From Paramagnetospirillum kuznetsovii (GTDB lineage Bacteria > Pseudomonadota > Alphaproteobacteria > Rhodospirillales > Magnetospirillaceae): DNA of 64,000 nt. Location: positions 186,001 to 250,000 of the forward strand of contig NZ_PGTO01000001.1 of the NCBI RefSeq assembly GCF_003284725.1, given 5' to 3'. This document shows, piece by piece, positions 42,770 through 52,511 of this stretch. Positions within the stretch are counted from its first letter, which is position 1. Each line of letters opens with the position of its first letter. The notes beneath the pieces are model-generated. The model was not told where the DNA came from. It was given only the letters and a program-made list of their open reading frames with translations, and did not search any database. Made by a program: the position numbers and the translations under genes.

Positions 42770-43798
42770 ATGACCGTAACCAGACGCAATGTCGTATTGG
42801 GCGCCTTGGCGGCGCCCGCTTTGCTGGCTCTGCCTCGGGGGGCGGCCCATGCCGCCGCTCCGGTGGACCTCAAGATTTCCCATCAATTCCCCGGCGGCAC
42901 CCTGACAGAGGGTGACTTTCGCGACCGTCTTTGCCGCGTCTTCGCCGCCGAGGTGGAAAAGCGCACCAATGGCGCCCTGAAGGGGACGGTGTTCCCCGGC
43001 TCGTCGCTGATGAAGACCAATGCCCAGTTCTCGGCGCTGCGCAAGGGGGCGCTGGATATGTCGCTCTACCCACTGTCCTATGCGGGCGGCGAGGTGCCCG
43101 AGGTCAATATCGGCCTGATGCCCGGCGTGGTGACCAATTACGAGCAGGGAACGGCGTGGAAATCGGCCCCGGTGGGCAAGGTTCTGGCCGATCTGCTGAT
43201 GGACAAGGGCATAAAGATCGTCAGTTGGATCTGGCAGGCGGGCGGCGTCGCCGGTCGTTCGACGCCGCTGGTCGAGCCCGCCGACGCCAAGGGCATGAAG
43301 GTCCGTGGCGGCTCGCGCGAGATGGACATGGTGCTGAAGGCGGCAGGGGCGGCGGTGATCTCGCTGCCGTCCAACGAAATCTACGCCGCCATGCAGACCG
43401 GGGCGCTGGACGCCGCCATGACCTCGTCCACCAGCCTGATCTCGTTCCGGCTGGAAGAGGTGGCGAAGACCCTGACCACCGGGCGCGGCAAGGCCTATTG
43501 GTTCATGCTGGAGCCGCTGCTGATCTCGCGCTCCATCTTCGAGGGTCTGCCCAAGGACATGCAGGACGTGATCATGACTGTGGGCGCCGAGATGGAGAAA
43601 TTCGGCACCGAGGCGGCCAAGGTGGACGATCAGGACGTCGCCCGGATCTACGCCAAGGCGGGCGCCCAGGTCAGCGACCTGTCGGCCGACACCGTCAAGC
43701 GCTGGCAGGACATCGCCCGCGAGACCGCCTGGAAGGACTACGCGGCGCGCAGCGACAGTTGCGCCAAGATCCTCAAACTGGCGGAGCAGGCCCTGTGA
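42770..43798 (+). CDS. dctP: TRAP transporter substrate-binding protein (DctP family)
   Basis: A 342-residue periplasmic protein. The N-terminus MTVTRRNVVLGALAAPALLA is a Tat-like signal (twin arginine) ending near AHAA. The fold matches DctP receptors: LKISHQFPGG, the conserved arginine region VRGGSREMDMVLKAAGA and LDAAMTSSTSL. Substrate is unknown; such receptors bind C4-dicarboxylates, other organic acids and similar compounds. The 3' end overlaps dctQ as GTGA. AAGGGAAGGCG precedes the start. Confidence 0.92.
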   Translation: MTVTRRNVVLGALAAPALLALPRGAAHAAAPVDLKISHQFPGGTLTEGDFRDRLCRVFAAEVEKRTNGALKGTVFPGSSLMKTNAQFSALRKGALDMSLYPLSYAGGEVPEVNIGLMPGVVTNYEQGTAWKSAPVGKVLADLLMDKGIKIVSWIWQAGGVAGRSTPLVEPADAKGMKVRGGSREMDMVLKAAGAAVISLPSNEIYAAMQTGALDAAMTSSTSLISFRLEEVAKTLTTGRGKAYWFMLEPLLISRSIFEGLPKDMQDVIMTVGAEMEKFGTEAAKVDDQDVARIYAKAGAQVSDLSADTVKRWQDIARETAWKDYAARSDSCAKILKLAEQAL

Positions 43799-44340
43799 GC
43801 CACGCCGCGCCGCCGGAGGCGGCGCTCGATCCGACCGGTCCGGGCCTTCTGGCCCGCACCGCCCGGCTGATGGCCTGGATCAACAAGGCGGTGATGGGCC
43901 TGTCCATGCTGGCCATCGTCGCCGCCGCCCTGATCCTGACCGGCAGCGTGGTGCTGCGCTATTTCCTCAAGATTCCCACCGATTGGCAGGATGAGGCGGC
44001 GGTGTTCCTGCTGGTGGGGCTGACCTTCATGTGTGGCGCGGCGGTCCAGGCGGGGCGCGGCCATATCGGCATCCAGGCCTTGGCGGGCCTGCTTCCCGCC
44101 GGGGTCAACCGGCTGCGGCTGCTGGTTTGCGACGCCGCCTCGGGCGGGTTCTGCGCCTTTTTTTCCTGGAAGTCGTGGACCTTGTTCCACGAGGCCTTGG
44201 CGGACGGCCAGACCACCTCGTCCAGTTGGGGGCCGCCGCTGTGGATTCCCTATGGCCTGATGGCGACGGGGATGACGTTGCTGTCCTTGCAGATCGTCCT
44301 GCAGGTGGCCGCCGCCCTGGCGGCTTGGAGGCGGCCATGA
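43795..44340 (+). CDS. dctQ: TRAP transporter small membrane subunit (DctQ family)
   Basis: A 181-residue protein with four predicted helices. VVLRYFLKIPTDWQDEAAVFLLVGLTFMCG is the family signature, where the W-x-DE segment is conserved. The GTG start overlaps dctP and the stop overlaps dctM (ATGA), so all three transporter subunits are translationally coupled. Confidence 0.92.
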   Translation: MSHAAPPEAALDPTGPGLLARTARLMAWINKAVMGLSMLAIVAAALILTGSVVLRYFLKIPTDWQDEAAVFLLVGLTFMCGAAVQAGRGHIGIQALAGLLPAGVNRLRLLVCDAASGGFCAFFSWKSWTLFHEALADGQTTSSSWGPPLWIPYGLMATGMTLLSLQIVLQVAAALAAWRRP

Positions 44341-45692
44341 GCGCCACCCTGGTCGGTAGCCTTTACGGCGTGGCCACCCTGCTGTTGATGTTCTCCGGCA
44401 TGCCCATCGCCTTCGCCCTGGGCGGCGTGGCGGTGGCCTTCATGTACTTCTTCATGCCGGGGGCCTCGCTCGACACCGTCACCCAGAACGTCTACGAGGA
44501 GATGGCCAGCATCACCTTGCTGTCCATTCCGCTGTTCATCCTGAAGGGTGCCGCCATCGGCAAGTCGCGGGCGGGCGCCGATCTCTACGGCGCCATCCAC
44601 GCCTGGATGCACCGCATTCCCGGCGGCCTCGGCATCGCCAATGTCTTCGCCTGCGCCGTCTTCGCCGCCATGGCGGGGTCCAGCCCCGCCACCTGTTCCG
44701 CCATCGGCAGCGCCGGTATTCCCGAAATGCGCATGCGCGGCTATTCGCCCGGCTTCGCCGCCGGAATCATCGCGGCCGGTGGTACCCTCGGCATCCTGCT
44801 GCCGCCGTCCATCACCATGATCCTGTTCGCGGTGGCGGCGGAACAGTCGCTCGGGCGGCTGTTCCTGGCGGGAATCTTTCCCGGATTGCTGCTGGTGGCG
44901 CTGTTCTCGGCCTATGCGGTGTGGAAGTTCAAGCGGGAATACGCCGCCGCCCTGGCCACCTGGCACGGCGGCGGCCATAAATCGGCCTATCTGGACGAGA
45001 TGACCCTGACCTTCGCCGAGAAGACGCGGCTGCTGCCCCGGGTGATGCCCTTCGTCATCCTGCTGACCGGCGTGATGGTGGCGCTGTATGGCGGCTATGC
45101 CACGCCGTCGGAGACCGCCGGACTGGGCGGCATCCTGGCGCTGGTGCTGATCGCCTCCATCTACGGCATGTGGCGGCCCCGCGATCTGGCGCCGATCTTG
45201 GCCAGCACCATCCGCGAATCCACCATGCTGATGTTCATCATCGGCATGAGCTTGCTGTATTCCTATGTGATGAGCTATCTCCAGATCAGCCAGTCGGCGG
45301 CCCAGTGGATTGTGGGCATGCACCTGTCGAAATGGGTGCTGCTGACCGCCATCCTGGTGCTGGTGGTGGTGCTGGGCTTCTTCCTGCCGCCGGTTTCCAT
45401 CATCTTGATGACGGCGCCCATCATCCTGCCGCCGCTCAAGGCGGCCGGTTTCGATCTGGTGTGGTTCGGGGTGGTGATGACCATCGTCATGGAGATGGGG
45501 CTGATCCATCCGCCGGTGGGGCTCAACATCTTCGTCATCAAGAACGTCGCCCCCGATATTCCCCTCAAGGACGTGTTGTGGGGGGTGATGCCCTTCGTCG
45601 GCCTGATGATCCTGGCGGTGGTCCTGCTGTGCCTGTTCCCCGGCATCGCGGTATGGCTGCCCGACGCGGTGATGGGGGCCAAGACGGTCTAG
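44337..45692 (+). CDS. dctM: TRAP transporter large permease subunit (DctM family)
   Basis: A 451-residue membrane protein with about twelve helices. MAGSSPATCSAIGSAGIPEM and GILLPPSITMILFAVAAEQS are the DctM signature loops, repeated in the C-half as FFLPPVSIILMTAPIILPPL. It is the sodium-coupled transport channel partnering DctQ and DctP. A 13-bp inverted repeat follows at 45763-45792. Confidence 0.94.
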   Translation: MSATLVGSLYGVATLLLMFSGMPIAFALGGVAVAFMYFFMPGASLDTVTQNVYEEMASITLLSIPLFILKGAAIGKSRAGADLYGAIHAWMHRIPGGLGIANVFACAVFAAMAGSSPATCSAIGSAGIPEMRMRGYSPGFAAGIIAAGGTLGILLPPSITMILFAVAAEQSLGRLFLAGIFPGLLLVALFSAYAVWKFKREYAAALATWHGGGHKSAYLDEMTLTFAEKTRLLPRVMPFVILLTGVMVALYGGYATPSETAGLGGILALVLIASIYGMWRPRDLAPILASTIRESTMLMFIIGMSLLYSYVMSYLQISQSAAQWIVGMHLSKWVLLTAILVLVVVLGFFLPPVSIILMTAPIILPPLKAAGFDLVWFGVVMTIVMEMGLIHPPVGLNIFVIKNVAPDIPLKDVLWGVMPFVGLMILAVVLLCLFPGIAVWLPDAVMGAKTV

Positions 45693-45793: not shown

Positions 45794-47167
45794 CTAGAAA
45801 ACGCAGCGCTGGGCGGGAAATTCCACCGTGATGGTGGTGCCCTTGTCCTTGGTGCTGTCGATGGCGAGGCGGCCGCCATGGGCCTCGGTCAGGGCCACCG
45901 CCAAGGGCAGGCCCAGCCCGATTCCTTCCTGCAAGCGGCTTTGGCTGTTCTCCACCTGGCAGTATTTGCTCAGGGCGCGCTCCATACCCGCCTTATCCAT
46001 GCCGATCCCGGTATCGGCGACGATGAAACGGCCGGTGCCGTCCGATGCCAGATGGGTGGAAACGAGCACACGGCCACCATCGGGGGTGAATTTGACGGCA
46101 TTGCTGACGATGTTGAGCAGAATCTGCCGCAGCCTCAGATCGTCGCCCCGCATGCGCAGGAAGGCGCCGTCGATCTTGGTCATCAGGGCGATGGACTTGG
46201 CGGTGGCCTTCAGCATGACCATGTGGCGCACCGCCTCCACCAGGGCGGCAATATCGACCTCCTGCTCGGCGAGTTCCAGCTTGCCCGCCTCGATCTTGGA
46301 AATGTCGAGAATATCCTCGATCAGCAACAGCAGGTGCCGCCCCGAGGCGAGGATATCCTTCACATAATCCTTGTAGCGCGGATTGTCCGGACCCAGGGCC
46401 TCCTGGTCGATCACGTCGGCGAAACCGATGATGGCGTTGAGCGGCGTGCGAAGCTCATGGCTCATATTGGCCAGGGCCTCCGACTTCTCGCGACTGGAGG
46501 TCTCGGCCCGCACGCGCTCATCGTTCAGCCGCTCGCTGACCAGCAGGGTGAAGGAGAAGGTCCAGCCGATGACGAAGATCAGCTGTCCCAGCACCACGGC
46601 GGCGTTGATGGCGCTGGGGGAAAAGATCTGGGCGGCGTTGGTCTGCGACAGCGCCGCCGCCGCGATGAGCGTGAAGGTCAGGGACAGCAGGCCGATGAAC
46701 AGGGCCGCCGCCAAATGCGATACCAGGCGAACCTTTCGGTATTCCTGCAAAATTATGAATAACGCGAATGCCATGACGGCCGCGTAGTAAATAAGATAGA
46801 AGAACAGTCTTATATTATACTGGTTATTGACCATGAAATAATAGGTGAATTCAAAAGAATAACAAATAATGGCAATACATAAAACCGTGTTGCTGACGCG
46901 TCTCCTAAAGAATTTCCCAACCCCGTGGAGGATCAGCGTATAGCCGATGCAGACGATGATATTGGCGACGACGAAGGACAGGATCGGCGGCAATACGGCC
47001 CGTAGGGCGATCAGGGTGAGGCCGATGAATAGGAACGTATTGGAAAAGGCGAAGGAGCGGATGCCGGGAATGGAATGATGACCGATGGACAAAAACCAGA
47101 CGAACATAGCCGCCATGGCGGCGACCACGACGAGGAGGGTGAAAAGAGTGGATATGTCCAAGGTCAT
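45794..47167 (-). CDS. Membrane-bound sensor histidine kinase
   Basis: A 457-residue orphan kinase. Residues about 1-205 form six or seven hydrophobic helices resembling an integral-membrane sensor. HisKA has the phospho-accepting ANMSHELRTPLNAIIGF; the ATPase shows N-box LLNIVSNAVKFTP, G1 VADTGIGMD and G2 GIGLGLPLA. No receiver domain is attached and no response regulator gene is near. Part of the membrane region (about 46740-46910) is unusually A+T-rich for this genome. It is divergent from the channel fusion gene. Confidence 0.9.
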   Translation of the reverse strand: MTLDISTLFTLLVVVAAMAAMFVWFLSIGHHSIPGIRSFAFSNTFLFIGLTLIALRAVLPPILSFVVANIIVCIGYTLILHGVGKFFRRRVSNTVLCIAIICYSFEFTYYFMVNNQYNIRLFFYLIYYAAVMAFALFIILQEYRKVRLVSHLAAALFIGLLSLTFTLIAAAALSQTNAAQIFSPSAINAAVVLGQLIFVIGWTFSFTLLVSERLNDERVRAETSSREKSEALANMSHELRTPLNAIIGFADVIDQEALGPDNPRYKDYVKDILASGRHLLLLIEDILDISKIEAGKLELAEQEVDIAALVEAVRHMVMLKATAKSIALMTKIDGAFLRMRGDDLRLRQILLNIVSNAVKFTPDGGRVLVSTHLASDGTGRFIVADTGIGMDKAGMERALSKYCQVENSQSRLQEGIGLGLPLAVALTEAHGGRLAIDSTKDKGTTITVEFPAQRCVF

Positions 47168-47337: not shown

Positions 47338-49533
47338 GTGCGACATGATTTCTCCATCACGTATTGGTGCGGGGTATTGGCCTGTCTGGCAATGACGGTG
47401 GCCGTTGGCGCTTGCCCGGATGCCGTCGCGGCCGACACGCTGACCATCGCGGTGGCGGCGCCCATGAGCGGCGGCGGCAAGCATATCGGTCCCGAGATCG
47501 CCAATGCGGTCCAGCTGCTGGCCGACGAGACCAATGCCGTCGGCGGCATCGGCGGGCGCTTGCTGACGGTGCGCCTGTTCGACGACGCCACCAGCGCGGA
47601 CGTCGCGAAGACGATCGCCGCCGAGATCAGCGCCGGTCCCGCCCTGGCGGTGATCGGCCATGCCCACAGCCCGGTCGCCCTGGCCGCCGCGCCTATCTAT
47701 CGCGATGGCGGCCTCGCCACCTTGTCCAGCGCCGCCGAGGGGGCCTTGACCAAGGATTTCGCCACCTTCTTCCGCATCATTCCGGCGCTTGACGCGCAAG
47801 GACGCGCCGCCGCCATCTATGCCCTGGAAGAATTGGGCCAGACCCGGACCACCATCGTCTATCGCGACGACAATTTCGGGCGCTCGCTGCTGCACGCCTA
47901 TTCTGACCAGTTCACCAAGGGCGGCCGCGGCCGTGTTCGCGCCATGCCCTTGCCCAAGGGTCCGGTGGACTGGGCGGCGGTGGTCACGGATCTGGCGGCC
48001 GATCCGGGGCTGATCGTCATCGCCATGCAGGACTTCGACGCCAAGCATTTCCTGGCGGAAAAGCGGCGGCGCGGCAACGAAGCCCCGGTGCTGGGCTCGC
48101 AGGCCTTCGCCCGCGACGTCTTCATCACCCTGTTCAAGGACGAGCCGGAGGAAGCGGCGCGGCCGGGATACTTCGCCGAGGGCCTTTACGCCATGGCGCC
48201 GACCATCCTGGACACCGCCAACAAGGACACCTTGGATTTCGCCTTGGCCTACCGGGCGCGGTTCGGCGCCTCGCCCGGCTGGATCGGGGTCAAGTATTAC
48301 GAGGCGGCCCGCGCCGTGGTCCAGGCCTTGGGGCGTGCCGCGATCGGCAATACCGCCCAGAGCCGGGACAAGGACCGCGCGTCGGTACGCCAGGCGCTGG
48401 CGGCGATGGACTCGCCATCCACGGCGGTCGGCGGCCTGACCGGGCCGATCCTGTTCGATGCCGAGCGCAACCGGGTGGATTCGTTCCGGGTCGGCCGCTT
48501 TCAGGGCGGCCGTTTCCTCTCGGCCCCGGTCCAACTGGTGCCGGTGGCCGATCCCCGCTCGGTGGACCTGCCCCGTGCCATGGCGGCCGATACCGTCCGC
48601 AAGATCGGCCAGGAGCATTTCTGGCGGCAAAGAATCGTCTATACCGGCATCCAGCCGGTCTCCATCGACAAGATCGAGACCAAAGACGGGTTCTTTTCCG
48701 CCGATTTCTATATGTGGATGCGCTTCGTCGAGCGCGAGGGAATCACCGCCGTCCAGTTTCCCGACATGATCCGGGGCGGCTACAATCCGGCCCAGCCGGT
48801 GGCGAGCCGCAAGGCCGACGGCATGACCTATCTGCTGTATCGGGTGAAGGGAGATTTTCGCAACGAATTCAACCTCGCGGATTATCCCTTCGACCAGCAG
48901 CAGCTGATCATCCGGCTGGCCAATACCCATCTGACCCGGGAAGAGGTGGTCTATGCGGTGGACGCCCTGCCGTCGGGGCGGGCCGATGCCGGGTCGTGGC
49001 GCATGCCGGGGCAATGGGATGGCCGCCAGGTGGACCGGTTCCGCGACGATCTGGTGTCCAAGGGGGCGCTGGGCGATCTCGACGCCATGCAATCGGGTCG
49101 GGCGCTGGAATTTTCCGGCTTCAAGGCGGTACTGATGGCGCAGCGCCAGGTCATGGTATTCCTGCGCAAGAACCTGCTGCCCCTGGGGCTGCTGACCCTG
49201 GTGGTCTATTCGACCCTGTTCTATCCGGAAAGCATGCTGAAGGAGCGCCTGACGGTGCCGGTGGCCGCCATGCTGGCCGCCTCGGTGCTGCTGTCGGGCG
49301 TCCAGGCCCGCCTGGGCGACATCGGCTATACCACGGCGGCCGAAGTGATCTTCTACATCTTCTTTTTCGCCGGCCTGATGGCCATGCTGTCGGCCCTGGT
49401 GGAGGAACGGTTGCGGCTGAGCAACTGGCCCCGCCTGATGATCATCGTGCGGCGGGGATCGCATATCCTGTTTCCGCTGACCGTGCTCGCCACCTGGATG
49501 GCGCTGTTCGTGCAGTATCGCGACCGCTTCTGA
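47338..49533 (+). CDS. Periplasmic-binding-protein / pentameric ligand-gated ion channel fusion
   Basis: A 731-residue protein. A signal peptide (1-32) is followed by a type-1 periplasmic binding protein domain of the branched-chain amino acid receptor kind (about 33-400: LTIAVAAPMSGGGKHIGPEI, TTIVYRDDNFGRSLL). Then a beta-rich region (about 420-605) contains DYPFDQQQLIIRL, the Pro-loop motif of Cys-loop-type channels without cysteines (Pro517, Phe518, Asp519). Four helices follow: about 612-632, 640-662, 670-697 and 708-727. GTG at 47338 starts the signal peptide. A ligand is not known. Confidence 0.85.
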   Translation: MRHDFSITYWCGVLACLAMTVAVGACPDAVAADTLTIAVAAPMSGGGKHIGPEIANAVQLLADETNAVGGIGGRLLTVRLFDDATSADVAKTIAAEISAGPALAVIGHAHSPVALAAAPIYRDGGLATLSSAAEGALTKDFATFFRIIPALDAQGRAAAIYALEELGQTRTTIVYRDDNFGRSLLHAYSDQFTKGGRGRVRAMPLPKGPVDWAAVVTDLAADPGLIVIAMQDFDAKHFLAEKRRRGNEAPVLGSQAFARDVFITLFKDEPEEAARPGYFAEGLYAMAPTILDTANKDTLDFALAYRARFGASPGWIGVKYYEAARAVVQALGRAAIGNTAQSRDKDRASVRQALAAMDSPSTAVGGLTGPILFDAERNRVDSFRVGRFQGGRFLSAPVQLVPVADPRSVDLPRAMAADTVRKIGQEHFWRQRIVYTGIQPVSIDKIETKDGFFSADFYMWMRFVEREGITAVQFPDMIRGGYNPAQPVASRKADGMTYLLYRVKGDFRNEFNLADYPFDQQQLIIRLANTHLTREEVVYAVDALPSGRADAGSWRMPGQWDGRQVDRFRDDLVSKGALGDLDAMQSGRALEFSGFKAVLMAQRQVMVFLRKNLLPLGLLTLVVYSTLFYPESMLKERLTVPVAAMLAASVLLSGVQARLGDIGYTTAAEVIFYIFFFAGLMAMLSALVEERLRLSNWPRLMIIVRRGSHILFPLTVLATWMALFVQYRDRF

Positions 49534-49551: not shown

Positions 49552-51870
49552 TCAGCGCGCGACGGCGCTGTCCTGATCGGCCATCCAACCGGTCACTTCG
49601 GCGCCCGGCATGGGCCGGGCGATGCCGTAGCCCTGGGCGACGTCGCAACCGGCGCGTTTCAGCCAGCCCAGCTCGGCGTCGGTTTCCGCACCCTCGGCCA
49701 CCACCTTGAGCCCCAGCGCATGGCCGAGCGCGATGGTGGAGCGCACGATCTCGGCATCCTTGCCCGATTCCATCAGGGAGAAGATGAAGGCCTGATCGAT
49801 CTTCAACTCGTGGACCGGCAGGGATTTGAGATAGGCCAGCGAGGCATGACCGGCGCCGTAATCGTCGATGGAGAGACGAACTCCAGACTCAGCCAACTGA
49901 TTGAGGGTTGCCAGCGCCAGATCGGGGTCGTCCATCAGGGCGCTTTCGGTGATTTCCAGGCAAAGCTGCCCAGGGGGCAGGCCACTGGAAGCGAGCAGGC
50001 GCTTCACCAGCGGCGCCAGGCCGGAATGCAGCAGATCCAGGGTGGACAGATTGGCCGACACCACGAGGTTCAGGCCCTGGGCCCGCCAAGCCGCCGTGCG
50101 CGCCACCACTTGGTCCAGCAGCCAGGGGGTGATCTCGCGGATGAAGCCGGTCTGTTCGGCGAAGGGTATGAACTGCGCCGGGGGGATCAGGCCGCGGCTT
50201 GGGTGGCGCCAGCGCAGCAGCGCCTCGGCGCCGGTCACCCGCCCGCTCGCCAGATCCAGTTTGGGCTGATAGAACACCTCGAATTCCTGGCGGAGCAAGG
50301 CATCGCGCATCTCGCCGATTAGCGACAGTTGCTCATGAGGCGGCCCGGCGCCGATCTCCGACGCCAGGGCATAGCCGCGAAACTGCCGCTTGGCCTCGCG
50401 CACCGCCAGTTCGGTGCGCTGGAGCAAGGTATTGGAATCGGCGGCGTCTTGCGGCCAGAAACCGATGCCCAGGCTGCCGCCCACGTCGATTCGCTGGCCG
50501 TCCAGCAAGATGGGCTCCTGCAAGGCCGCGTGAATGGTCACCGACAGAGCGATGGCCGCCTCGGTATCGGTGCCGTCACGGACCACGGCGAATTCATCAC
50601 CCCAAAGACGGCAGACCCCGATGCCTGGGGCGACGGTGGCGACCAGCCGGTCGCCCACCAGCCGCAGCAGGCGGTCGCCCACCGCATGGCCCAGGGCGTC
50701 GTTGATCAGCCCGAAGCGATCGAGATCGAGGATGAGCACGGCGCAGGGCGGCGTTGGGCCGGTTCGTCCCAGCCGATCCAGCAGCCATGTGCGGTTGGGT
50801 AGGCCGGTCAGACCGTCCTCATAGGCCAGCCGCAGGATCTTTTGCTCCCTGGCGGCGATGCCTTGGCGCATGCGGTCGAAGCTGGCCGCCAGTTGACCGA
50901 TCTCGTCGGCCCCGGAATCCGGGACCGGCTCGTGATAATCGCCCGCCTCGATGCGCCGAGCCGCTTCGGCCAGGGTATTGACCGGCCGGGCGATGTGGCG
51001 GGCCAGCCGCAGGCTGCCCAGGATGAACAGCACTGCGCCGCCCAGGGCGATCACCGCCAGCGAGCGGTGAAGATCGCGAAACACCGCCTCGGCCTGATCG
51101 AGCGACAACAGCAGCACCGCCGTCGCCCTCTCGCTCATGGGCCGCGCCATGACGTGATGGCGCTGACCGTTCAGGGACATCAGGATCGGGATATCTGGCG
51201 GCGGCAGGGCCGAACGCTCGCCCAGGGCATCGCGCAATTCGGCGCTCAACGAACCGGCCGGCACCACGGTGCGGCCGTCGGATTCGGCCAGGACGGCGAT
51301 GCCCAAGCCGCTCATGGCGGAAAAGCTGCGGGCCCAGGAATCATCCACGTTGAAGCCCATGGCGACCCAGGCGATCTGGCCCGGCGCCATGATGGGCACG
51401 ATGGCGATCTGATAAAGGCGGCCGTCCATCTCGTCGAATCCGGCGCTTTGGCCGGTCGCCTGGGCGGCGCGCAACAAGCCGTCGAACGGCGCGGGTCGCG
51501 GTTTGCCGCCGGGGGCCAGGGTGTCGGCCATCACCATGCCGTCCAGCGACACCACCATCATGAAACCGGCGCCGATGCGCGATCCGTGATTGCGCAGCAC
51601 CGACAGAACGGTGGCGCGATCCTGGGTGGCGATGGCTTCGCGGAAGCTGAAATCCCGCGCCAGCACCGAGGCGGCGGTTTCCATCTGGCTCTGGCTATAG
51701 GCAACCAGATAGTCGAAGGTTCGCACCCCGGCGCCCAGGCGGCGCTCGGATTCCCCGGAAACGACGCGGTCGTTGCTTTCGATCACCAGCAGCAGGGTCA
51801 GACTGGTCACCAAGGCCAGCAGTCCGACGAAGACCGCCACGATGCGCCGCTCGATGGATCGGAACACCAT
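49552..51870 (-). CDS. Membrane GGDEF-EAL protein with periplasmic sensor and HAMP domain
   Basis: A 772-residue protein. Two transmembrane helices (about 10-30 and 270-290) bracket a periplasmic sensor of the double-Cache-like type; a HAMP domain follows (RHIARPVNTLAEAARRIEAGD). The GGDEF domain has LDLDRFGLINDALGHAVGD but its signature is WGDEF, with no RxxD inhibitory site seen. The EAL domain keeps EALLRW, ITESALM, DDYGAGHASL and AEGAET, so c-di-GMP phosphodiesterase activity is likely. The ATG at 51870 shares one base with the upstream stop. Confidence 0.9.
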   Translation of the reverse strand: MVFRSIERRIVAVFVGLLALVTSLTLLLVIESNDRVVSGESERRLGAGVRTFDYLVAYSQSQMETAASVLARDFSFREAIATQDRATVLSVLRNHGSRIGAGFMMVVSLDGMVMADTLAPGGKPRPAPFDGLLRAAQATGQSAGFDEMDGRLYQIAIVPIMAPGQIAWVAMGFNVDDSWARSFSAMSGLGIAVLAESDGRTVVPAGSLSAELRDALGERSALPPPDIPILMSLNGQRHHVMARPMSERATAVLLLSLDQAEAVFRDLHRSLAVIALGGAVLFILGSLRLARHIARPVNTLAEAARRIEAGDYHEPVPDSGADEIGQLAASFDRMRQGIAAREQKILRLAYEDGLTGLPNRTWLLDRLGRTGPTPPCAVLILDLDRFGLINDALGHAVGDRLLRLVGDRLVATVAPGIGVCRLWGDEFAVVRDGTDTEAAIALSVTIHAALQEPILLDGQRIDVGGSLGIGFWPQDAADSNTLLQRTELAVREAKRQFRGYALASEIGAGPPHEQLSLIGEMRDALLRQEFEVFYQPKLDLASGRVTGAEALLRWRHPSRGLIPPAQFIPFAEQTGFIREITPWLLDQVVARTAAWRAQGLNLVVSANLSTLDLLHSGLAPLVKRLLASSGLPPGQLCLEITESALMDDPDLALATLNQLAESGVRLSIDDYGAGHASLAYLKSLPVHELKIDQAFIFSLMESGKDAEIVRSTIALGHALGLKVVAEGAETDAELGWLKRAGCDVAQGYGIARPMPGAEVTGWMADQDSAVAR

Positions 51871-52511
51871 CAGTAATCGTCCTTGTCGGCCGGTGGCTTG
51901 CGCCGGGCCGTCCGTGGCGAAACCTCCATGGTCGCGTCGATTCGAATGGAGTCGGCCCCGTCCAGGACAAGCGGCCGCTCCGCGACGGCTTGCCGTTGCA
52001 GCGGATGCCACAGCCGCAACCGATGGCGCCCGGCCGGAAGATCGGCGATTTTCGCGCAGCCGTCGGGGCCGGTCTTGGCGAAATAGGGGGACTCGACCAC
52101 CAGCACATAGGCTTCCATCCAATCATGGATGTTGCAGCCGATGGCGATGTCGCCGGTCTTGTCGAACAGCACCGGGGCGGCGGGCTTGCCCGCGTAAAGC
52201 TTGATCTCGAAGGGTTTGGCGGCGGAAAACGAATAGACGTGGTGCTTCAAGGGGTCGCGATTGGGAAATTCGATCTCGGTTCCCTGGCGCACGATGGTCA
52301 GAAACGGCACGAAGTCACGGTCGATCTGTTCGATGGCGGCCAGCGGCCTGGGCATGCGGGGATCCACGGTGGCGCCCTCGACCACCACCGCCGCGTCCGG
52401 GATCGGGCGCCCGGTGGGGCCGGTCACGCATGCGCTCAGCTCGGCGGCCGACGCTTCGGTGGCGCATGCCGCCAGGGCAAGGACGAAAAGTACCGTCCGG
52501 CGATGGATCAT
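51870..52511 (-). CDS. Periplasmic cupredoxin-like protein (methylamine-utilization-protein type)
   Basis: A 213-residue exported protein with a signal peptide ending near SASA-AE. The middle resembles a plastocyanin fold: EIEFPNRDPLKHHVYSFSAA with a candidate His ligand, and GCNIHDWMEAYVLVV, supplying Cys, His and Met in the CxxHxxM spacing of type-1 copper sites. A carboxypeptidase-regulatory-like strand set (GPTGRPIPDAAVVVEG, LPAGRHRLRLWHP) flanks it. It overlaps the upstream SnoaL-like gene (ATGA) and abuts the GGDEF-EAL gene. Copper binding is inferred. Confidence 0.75.
   Translation of the reverse strand: MIHRRTVLFVLALAACATEASAAELSACVTGPTGRPIPDAAVVVEGATVDPRMPRPLAAIEQIDRDFVPFLTIVRQGTEIEFPNRDPLKHHVYSFSAAKPFEIKLYAGKPAAPVLFDKTGDIAIGCNIHDWMEAYVLVVESPYFAKTGPDGCAKIADLPAGRHRLRLWHPLQRQAVAERPLVLDGADSIRIDATMEVSPRTARRKPPADKDDY

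Follow-up and report, generated by a model that had tools for sequence, protein, structure and literature searches.

A bacterial relative of neurotransmitter-gated channels capped by a Venus-flytrap domain, and an apparently undescribed family in which a similar sensor half precedes an MscS pore

The DNA analysed here, called the window below, is a stretch of 64,000 nucleotides of Paramagnetospirillum kuznetsovii (contig NZ_PGTO01000001.1, positions 186,001 to 250,000). At one locus in it, a single intact open reading frame (Table 1) encodes a protein which, as an earlier note on this DNA had proposed, joins a type-1 binding protein of the Venus-flytrap kind to a Pro-loop pentameric channel. 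On sequence grounds, this protein is a bacterial relative of the neurotransmitter-gated channels with a binding-protein domain on top. Hydropathy confirms the four membrane helices of the earlier note (residues ~605-623, 638-656, 670-688 and 707-725), and residues 33-731 hold no cysteine, extracellular domain (ECD) included. The gene lies on the + strand between a histidine kinase gene (45794-47167) and a gene for a dCache-HAMP-GGDEF-EAL protein (49552-52122), both on the - strand. Upstream of the kinase, at 42770-45692, we also noted a DctP binding protein together with, by eye, DctQ/DctM-like TRAP transporter genes.

Table 1. Features of the fusion gene and of its product, in window coordinates
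Feature	Position	Strand	Basis or remark
PBP-pLGIC fusion gene	47338..49533	+	GTG start, 731 aa, without internal stop
Putative signal peptide, residues 1-32	47338..47433	+	From hydrophobic stretch at 13-31
Type-1 periplasmic-binding (Venus-flytrap) domain, residues 34-380	47437..48477	+	Pfam PF13458 E 1.6e-36; VIA Z 42.7 to 4gnr
Linker / PBP C-terminal strands to ECD, residues 381-429	48478..48624	+	Model pLDDT 48-56; low-confidence hinge ~401-430
pLGIC extracellular beta-sandwich, residues 430-600	48625..49137	+	Profile match GLIC E 1e-8; hhalign to plain pLGIC ECDs E 3e-22
Pro-loop YPFD, residues 516-519	48883..48894	+	Asp519 = Pro-loop Asp
Four-helix pore domain, residues 603-731	49144..49530	+	phmmer alignment to ELIC/GLIC; hydropathy; hhalign TMD
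M2 pore-lining helix, residues 636-656, ERLTVPVAAMLAASVLLSGVQ	49243..49305	+	Aligned to ELIC 'ERLQTSFTLML'

The N-terminal half carries a full-length, two-lobed Peripla_BP_6 domain (PF13458), well above the Pfam cut-off: the match on residues 34-380 has an E-value of 1.6e-36 and 127.1 bits for a cut-off of 31.7, and covers positions 1-329 of the 343 of the profile. The assignment of this half in the earlier note was thus borne out. The predicted fold of the periplasmic-binding protein (PBP) domain resembles binding proteins of the LivJ/LivK type (VIA Z 42.7, rmsd 2.1, 342 residues). Alignment to LivJ (2LIV) was used to compare the pocket at three LivJ residues, Ser79, Ala100 and Thr102, which we take to be contacts of the alpha-amino acid. 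The equivalents of the first two are kept (S111 and A132), while at the third position, Thr102 in LivJ, the window protein has Glu134. On this alignment, the ligand could be amino-acid-like.

For the channel half, phmmer aligned the ELIC and GLIC chains with residues 494-722 (best E 5.2e-7), a span that comprises the second half of the ECD and all four membrane helices. GLIC is proton-gated and ELIC amine-gated. An ECD profile built from the window protein, two orthologues and three paralogues matched GLIC at E 1e-8, and the same type of profile aligned with the ECDs of plain bacterial pentameric ligand-gated channels (pLGICs) at E 3e-22 (hhalign). The transmembrane domain (TMD) profile of the two PBP-bearing pLGIC types, W (that of the window protein) and A, aligned with the plain pLGIC TMD at E 3.4e-7 (hhalign). 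The outcome that would have refuted the earlier note, a C-terminal half other than a pLGIC, did not occur. In the phmmer alignment, pre-M1 Arg603, M1 Pro615, M2 Glu636-Arg637 and the 9′ Leu646 can be identified. Family models were of less help: NCBIfam LGIC_1 reached E 9.5e-6 and 25 bits, far under its cut-off of 500, and the Pfam Neur_chan models did not report the protein at E 0.001, so that automatic annotation sees a binding protein only. The pLGIC assignment accordingly rests on homology to ELIC, GLIC and the plain pLGIC profiles.

In the AlphaFold2 model, the PBP is confident and the first ECD strands are fairly so; pLDDT in the pore is about 30-68, because the alignment held relatives of MscS type only (see below) and no other pLGIC pore. 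For this reason the fold of the TMD is taken from homology, as is the identity of the ECD and pore, since fold searches with whole models were filled by PBPs. Concerning the pore, the 'ERL' motif at the start of M2 is identical to that of ELIC, which is cation-selective, and this suggests cation selectivity for the window protein. The M2 Glu is aligned with Ala or His in the two closest orthologues, however, and cation selectivity may not hold across the subfamily.

Orthologues of the window type are rare: we found them in genomes G032 (36% identity) and G375 (39%) and, more distant, in G810 (29%), indicating a conserved gene. Subfamily W comprises the window protein and those of G032 and G375. 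No viral copies were found. The window's genome also encodes a second, conventional PBP-pLGIC, ~21% identical (L002:1459-3702; C1:91093-93177); heteropentamers of the two proteins are conceivable. The earlier note had also seen significance in the kinase and c-di-GMP genes. They do flank the gene, as it stated, but they are on the opposite strand, and both are absent near the two orthologues examined (G032 and G375). The window gene therefore looks monocistronic.

Several related arrangements were observed in passing. In G032, a HAMP-MFS transporter precedes the window-type PBP-pLGIC within a single open frame (L037:6352-10737, - strand, 1462 aa); this may reflect either a fusion of MFS and receptor or an overlap in translation. 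At another locus, a pLGIC without PBP (L035:330-1403) is followed by a gene (1403-2803) that, judged by eye, seems to encode a phosphoesterase-like region and then a PBP-like start; this pair is possibly a split version of the PBP-pLGIC architecture. Many PBP-pLGICs of 710-790 aa occur in another class of the same phylum (L207-L213, L217-L227). Some genomes of that class (G711, G737 and G761) gave full-length pLGIC-type matches as well as ECD-only matches in frames of ~1030 aa.

Searching with the channel half yielded many matches that do not extend beyond the ECD, in frames ~1000 residues long. The proteins concerned are composed of a PBP, an ECD-like domain, several TM helices and an MscS domain, sometimes followed by a cNMP-binding domain. 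A species-genome scan with the ECD of this sister family returned 110 loci, 80 of which were kept (L048-L127, e.g. L054:5696-8692 of Magnetospirillum moscoviense and L119:5684-8767 of Azospirillum brasilense), and the family therefore counts at least 80 loci. Its hosts are Azospirillum, Magnetospirillum and other Rhodospirillales, Magnetococcales, Desulfamplus, and beta- and gammaproteobacteria. Among 44 members checked, all carried the MscS domain (MS_channel, PF00924) and 43 carried PF13458. Where annotated, they are called substrate-binding proteins only; the Azospirillum sp. B510 member AZL_RS21580, for instance, is an 'ABC transporter substrate-binding protein'. Two members, L025:193-3351 and L027:1-3312, have an added C-terminal cyclic-nucleotide-binding domain. 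Within one literature collection, we found no report joining a PBP or a pLGIC ECD to MscS, and the family is apparently undescribed.

Whether the ECD-like domain of these proteins is a pLGIC ECD was examined by profile-profile alignment. MscS-type ECDs against those of PBP-pLGICs gave E-values of 1.4e-26 and 1.8e-26, and MscS-type ECDs against plain pLGIC ECDs, which had not been used in finding them, gave 1.3e-12; reversed, column-shuffled and PBP controls stayed at 0.06-0.6. The TM region, on the other hand, has no similarity to the pLGIC TMD beyond that of a reversed control (E 0.026 and 0.03, respectively). The Pro-loop Asp, a residue to which coupling with the pLGIC pore is ascribed, is present in 14 of 15 pLGIC-type ECDs and in none of 80 MscS-type ECDs, where 76 have Gly. 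Such a loss would agree with a sensor that no longer has to act on a pLGIC pore. Lacking both the pLGIC pore and the Pro-loop Asp, the sister family does not belong to the pLGICs, to which it is related in its sensor only. Searched directly against the PDB by itself, the MscS-type ECD profile returned nothing at E 10, so that the identity of this domain rests on profile-profile homology and not on structure. In the AlphaFold2 prediction for the M. moscoviense protein, a strand-rich domain (454-632) lies, as expected, between PBP and membrane helices. Taken at the level of sequence, the case is strong that the PBP and ECD half of the window protein is common to channels with an MscS pore.

Trees were used to follow the history of this half. 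Channel-linked PBPs of the two pLGIC types (A and W) and of the MscS type group together to the exclusion of 28 plain PBPs (100/99), and are most simply explained by a single origin. MscS-type ECDs likewise form one clade (99/96, or 98/98 with more PBP-pLGICs added), which falls inside the PBP-pLGICs when the tree is rooted on plain pLGICs; the fork joining it to PBP-pLGICs other than the window group is not firm (94/79). For the MscS domains of these proteins, too, a single clade was recovered (97/92). Taken together, the ECD and MscS trees suggest that a pLGIC pore was replaced by an MscS pore. The PBP tree, in contrast, interleaves the pore types with three changes, and places the window group with the MscS-type L027 (93/95); a PBP tree holding the MscS group together is not rejected (AU test, p-AU 0.28). 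The ECD and MscS trees thus argue for a single gain of the MscS pore, and the PBP tree does not.

The genomic context goes with the pore type. Considering MscS-type loci of at least 9 kb (n=68), 45 have two or more of TolC, a type I secretion (T1SS) ABC transporter and HlyD within 7 kb (22/22 for the Azospirillum-like loci, 23/46 for the others). The same test on 17 pLGIC-type loci, among them the window in its full length, found neither TolC nor HlyD, and one partial ABC match. The T1SS genes are often directly adjacent to, and co-directional with, the MscS-type gene. Loci with MscS-type genes in operons for type I secretion and giant repeat proteins include L062:1802-12909, L048, L069, L073, L111 and L092, and in L062 the gene families were confirmed by Pfam and NCBIfam. 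About half of the loci have large repeat proteins just upstream of the MscS-type gene; the one checked has seven Laminin_G_3 and cadherin-like domains. Gene cluster c8, which looked like antisense ORFs, was left out of this reading. At L119:9631-13589, IcmF-related and DotU-like genes (T6SS-type) lie directly downstream of an Azospirillum MscS-type gene. With the HAMP-MFS frame of G032 may be compared an MFS gene (827 aa, 28% identical over ~385 residues) that stands two genes downstream of the MscS-type gene in Azospirillum sp. B510 (L046). As a hypothesis, MscS opening in the sister family, gated by ligand or by tension, would be linked to adhesin secretion.

These results can be brought together by supposing that the two-layer sensor, PBP plus pLGIC-type ECD, is a portable gating cassette that moved once, from a pLGIC pore to an MscS pore, and yielded widespread, probably ligand-gated MscS channels tied to type-I secretion of giant adhesins. 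We would put the chances of this proposal, as a whole, at about even. The domain architecture in it has good support; the gating by ligand, the stoichiometry and the connection with secretion are what we infer. The window protein belongs to one pLGIC-pored lineage of the cassette.

How might the window protein work? Starting from its domain content, its homology to ELIC and GLIC, the intact coupling and pore motifs and the conservation in other genomes, all of which are read directly from the sequences, we infer a pentamer, capture of a ligand, and a direction of allostery, an ion selectivity and a physiology as follows. The protein is likely to be the subunit of a homopentameric pLGIC of the inner membrane, with a PBP atop each ECD, in which clamping of a ligand leads to pore opening; the pentamer could also be heteromeric with the own-genome paralogue. 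The exported PBP would clamp a small organic ligand (amino-acid-like or carboxylate), its closure would move the linker (381-430) and shift the beta-sandwich beneath, and the Pro-loop (Asp519) with pre-M1 Arg603 would relay this shift to M2. A narrow, probably cation-selective pore would then open and the cell would be depolarised.

Other readings have to be weighed against this one. The PBP could be a structural or assembly cap only, gating being achieved through the ECD itself by protons, calcium or amines, as in GLIC, ELIC and DeCLIC. This is the behaviour of characterised bacterial pLGICs, which respond at the ECD, and the N-terminal lobes of DeCLIC modulate and do not bind agonist (PMC9897478); the substitution of the Thr102 contact by Glu134 points the same way. 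Yet the other two contacts, S111 and A132, are kept, a full two-lobed PBP is conserved in every channel-linked lineage, and plain pLGICs exist without PBP, so that a mere cap is not required; we consider such a role unlikely, though worth keeping in mind. Less probable still is a TM part that does not conduct and serves a ligand-triggered membrane receptor acting via partner proteins. That orthologues differ in pore residues, with E, A or H on the cytoplasmic side of M2, would be in keeping with it, but the protein keeps the 9′ Leu, the M1 Pro, the pre-M1 Arg and the Pro-loop, its M2-M3 aligns with ELIC, and it has no cytoplasmic signalling domain. A third reading makes one signalling unit of the window gene, the histidine kinase divergent from it and the dCache-GGDEF-EAL protein convergent with it. 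The three do adjoin in the window; given the opposite strands, the missing neighbours at the orthologues and the own-genome paralogue, which is also placed elsewhere (L038), we give this very little credence. Neighbour context as a guide to function was rejected, the neighbours not being conserved.

We know of no established physiological role for bacterial pLGICs, and in the literature searched found no functional study of a PBP-capped one. A Venus-flytrap domain atop a pLGIC subunit offers a way to the natural ligand, since the soluble PBP can be produced by itself for screening. The interest of the window protein is raised by the evidence that its sensor half is common to apparently undescribed MscS-pored receptors, a family that bears on the old question of how separable sensor and pore modules are. 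There, an intact pLGIC-type sensor has apparently moved onto the unrelated MscS pore, which is ordinarily seven-fold and not five-fold, losing the Pro-loop Asp. If this is true, many entries named 'ABC transporter substrate-binding protein' (e.g. AZL_RS21580) would be ion channels.

Among known systems, the MscS family, in which C-terminal cNMP-binding domains also occur, has the pore and beta domain of the sister family; ordinary MscS proteins have neither PBP nor pLGIC-type ECD, and the MscS domains of the fused proteins are a clade of their own. With the LivJ/LivK-type binding proteins for branched-chain amino acids, the window PBP has in common the fold and Peripla_BP_6 membership; the former serve an ABC importer whereas the latter is tethered to a channel, and channel-linked PBPs are a clade apart from the 28 plain PBPs. 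ELIC and GLIC have the ECD, Pro-loop, pre-M1 Arg and M1-M4 in common with the window protein; unlike it, they lack an N-terminal binding protein, and they resemble it only distantly (phmmer E 5e-7 at best). In DeCLIC, a bacterial pLGIC from Desulfofustis, the N-terminus also bears an accessory domain in the periplasm (PMC9897478, PMC12664993), which consists of two beta-rich lobes affecting gating with calcium and not of a Venus-flytrap PBP. Closest are the PBP-I/ART-LGIC fusions described by Tasneem et al. in 2005 in Magnetospirillum magnetotacticum and Bradyrhizobium japonicum, and compared by these authors with NMDA and metabotropic glutamate receptors (PMC549065), so that the architecture is not new. 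Their domain order (signal peptide, type-1 PBP, pLGIC ligand-binding domain, four TMs) is that of the window protein, and they come from the same bacterial group. The conventional Magnetospirillum-type copy (here L002) is nevertheless only ~21% identical to the window protein, which stands in subfamily W, separate from the conventional fusions, with a PBP that groups with that of an MscS-type member (93/95). The window protein is thus a divergent member of a published architecture.
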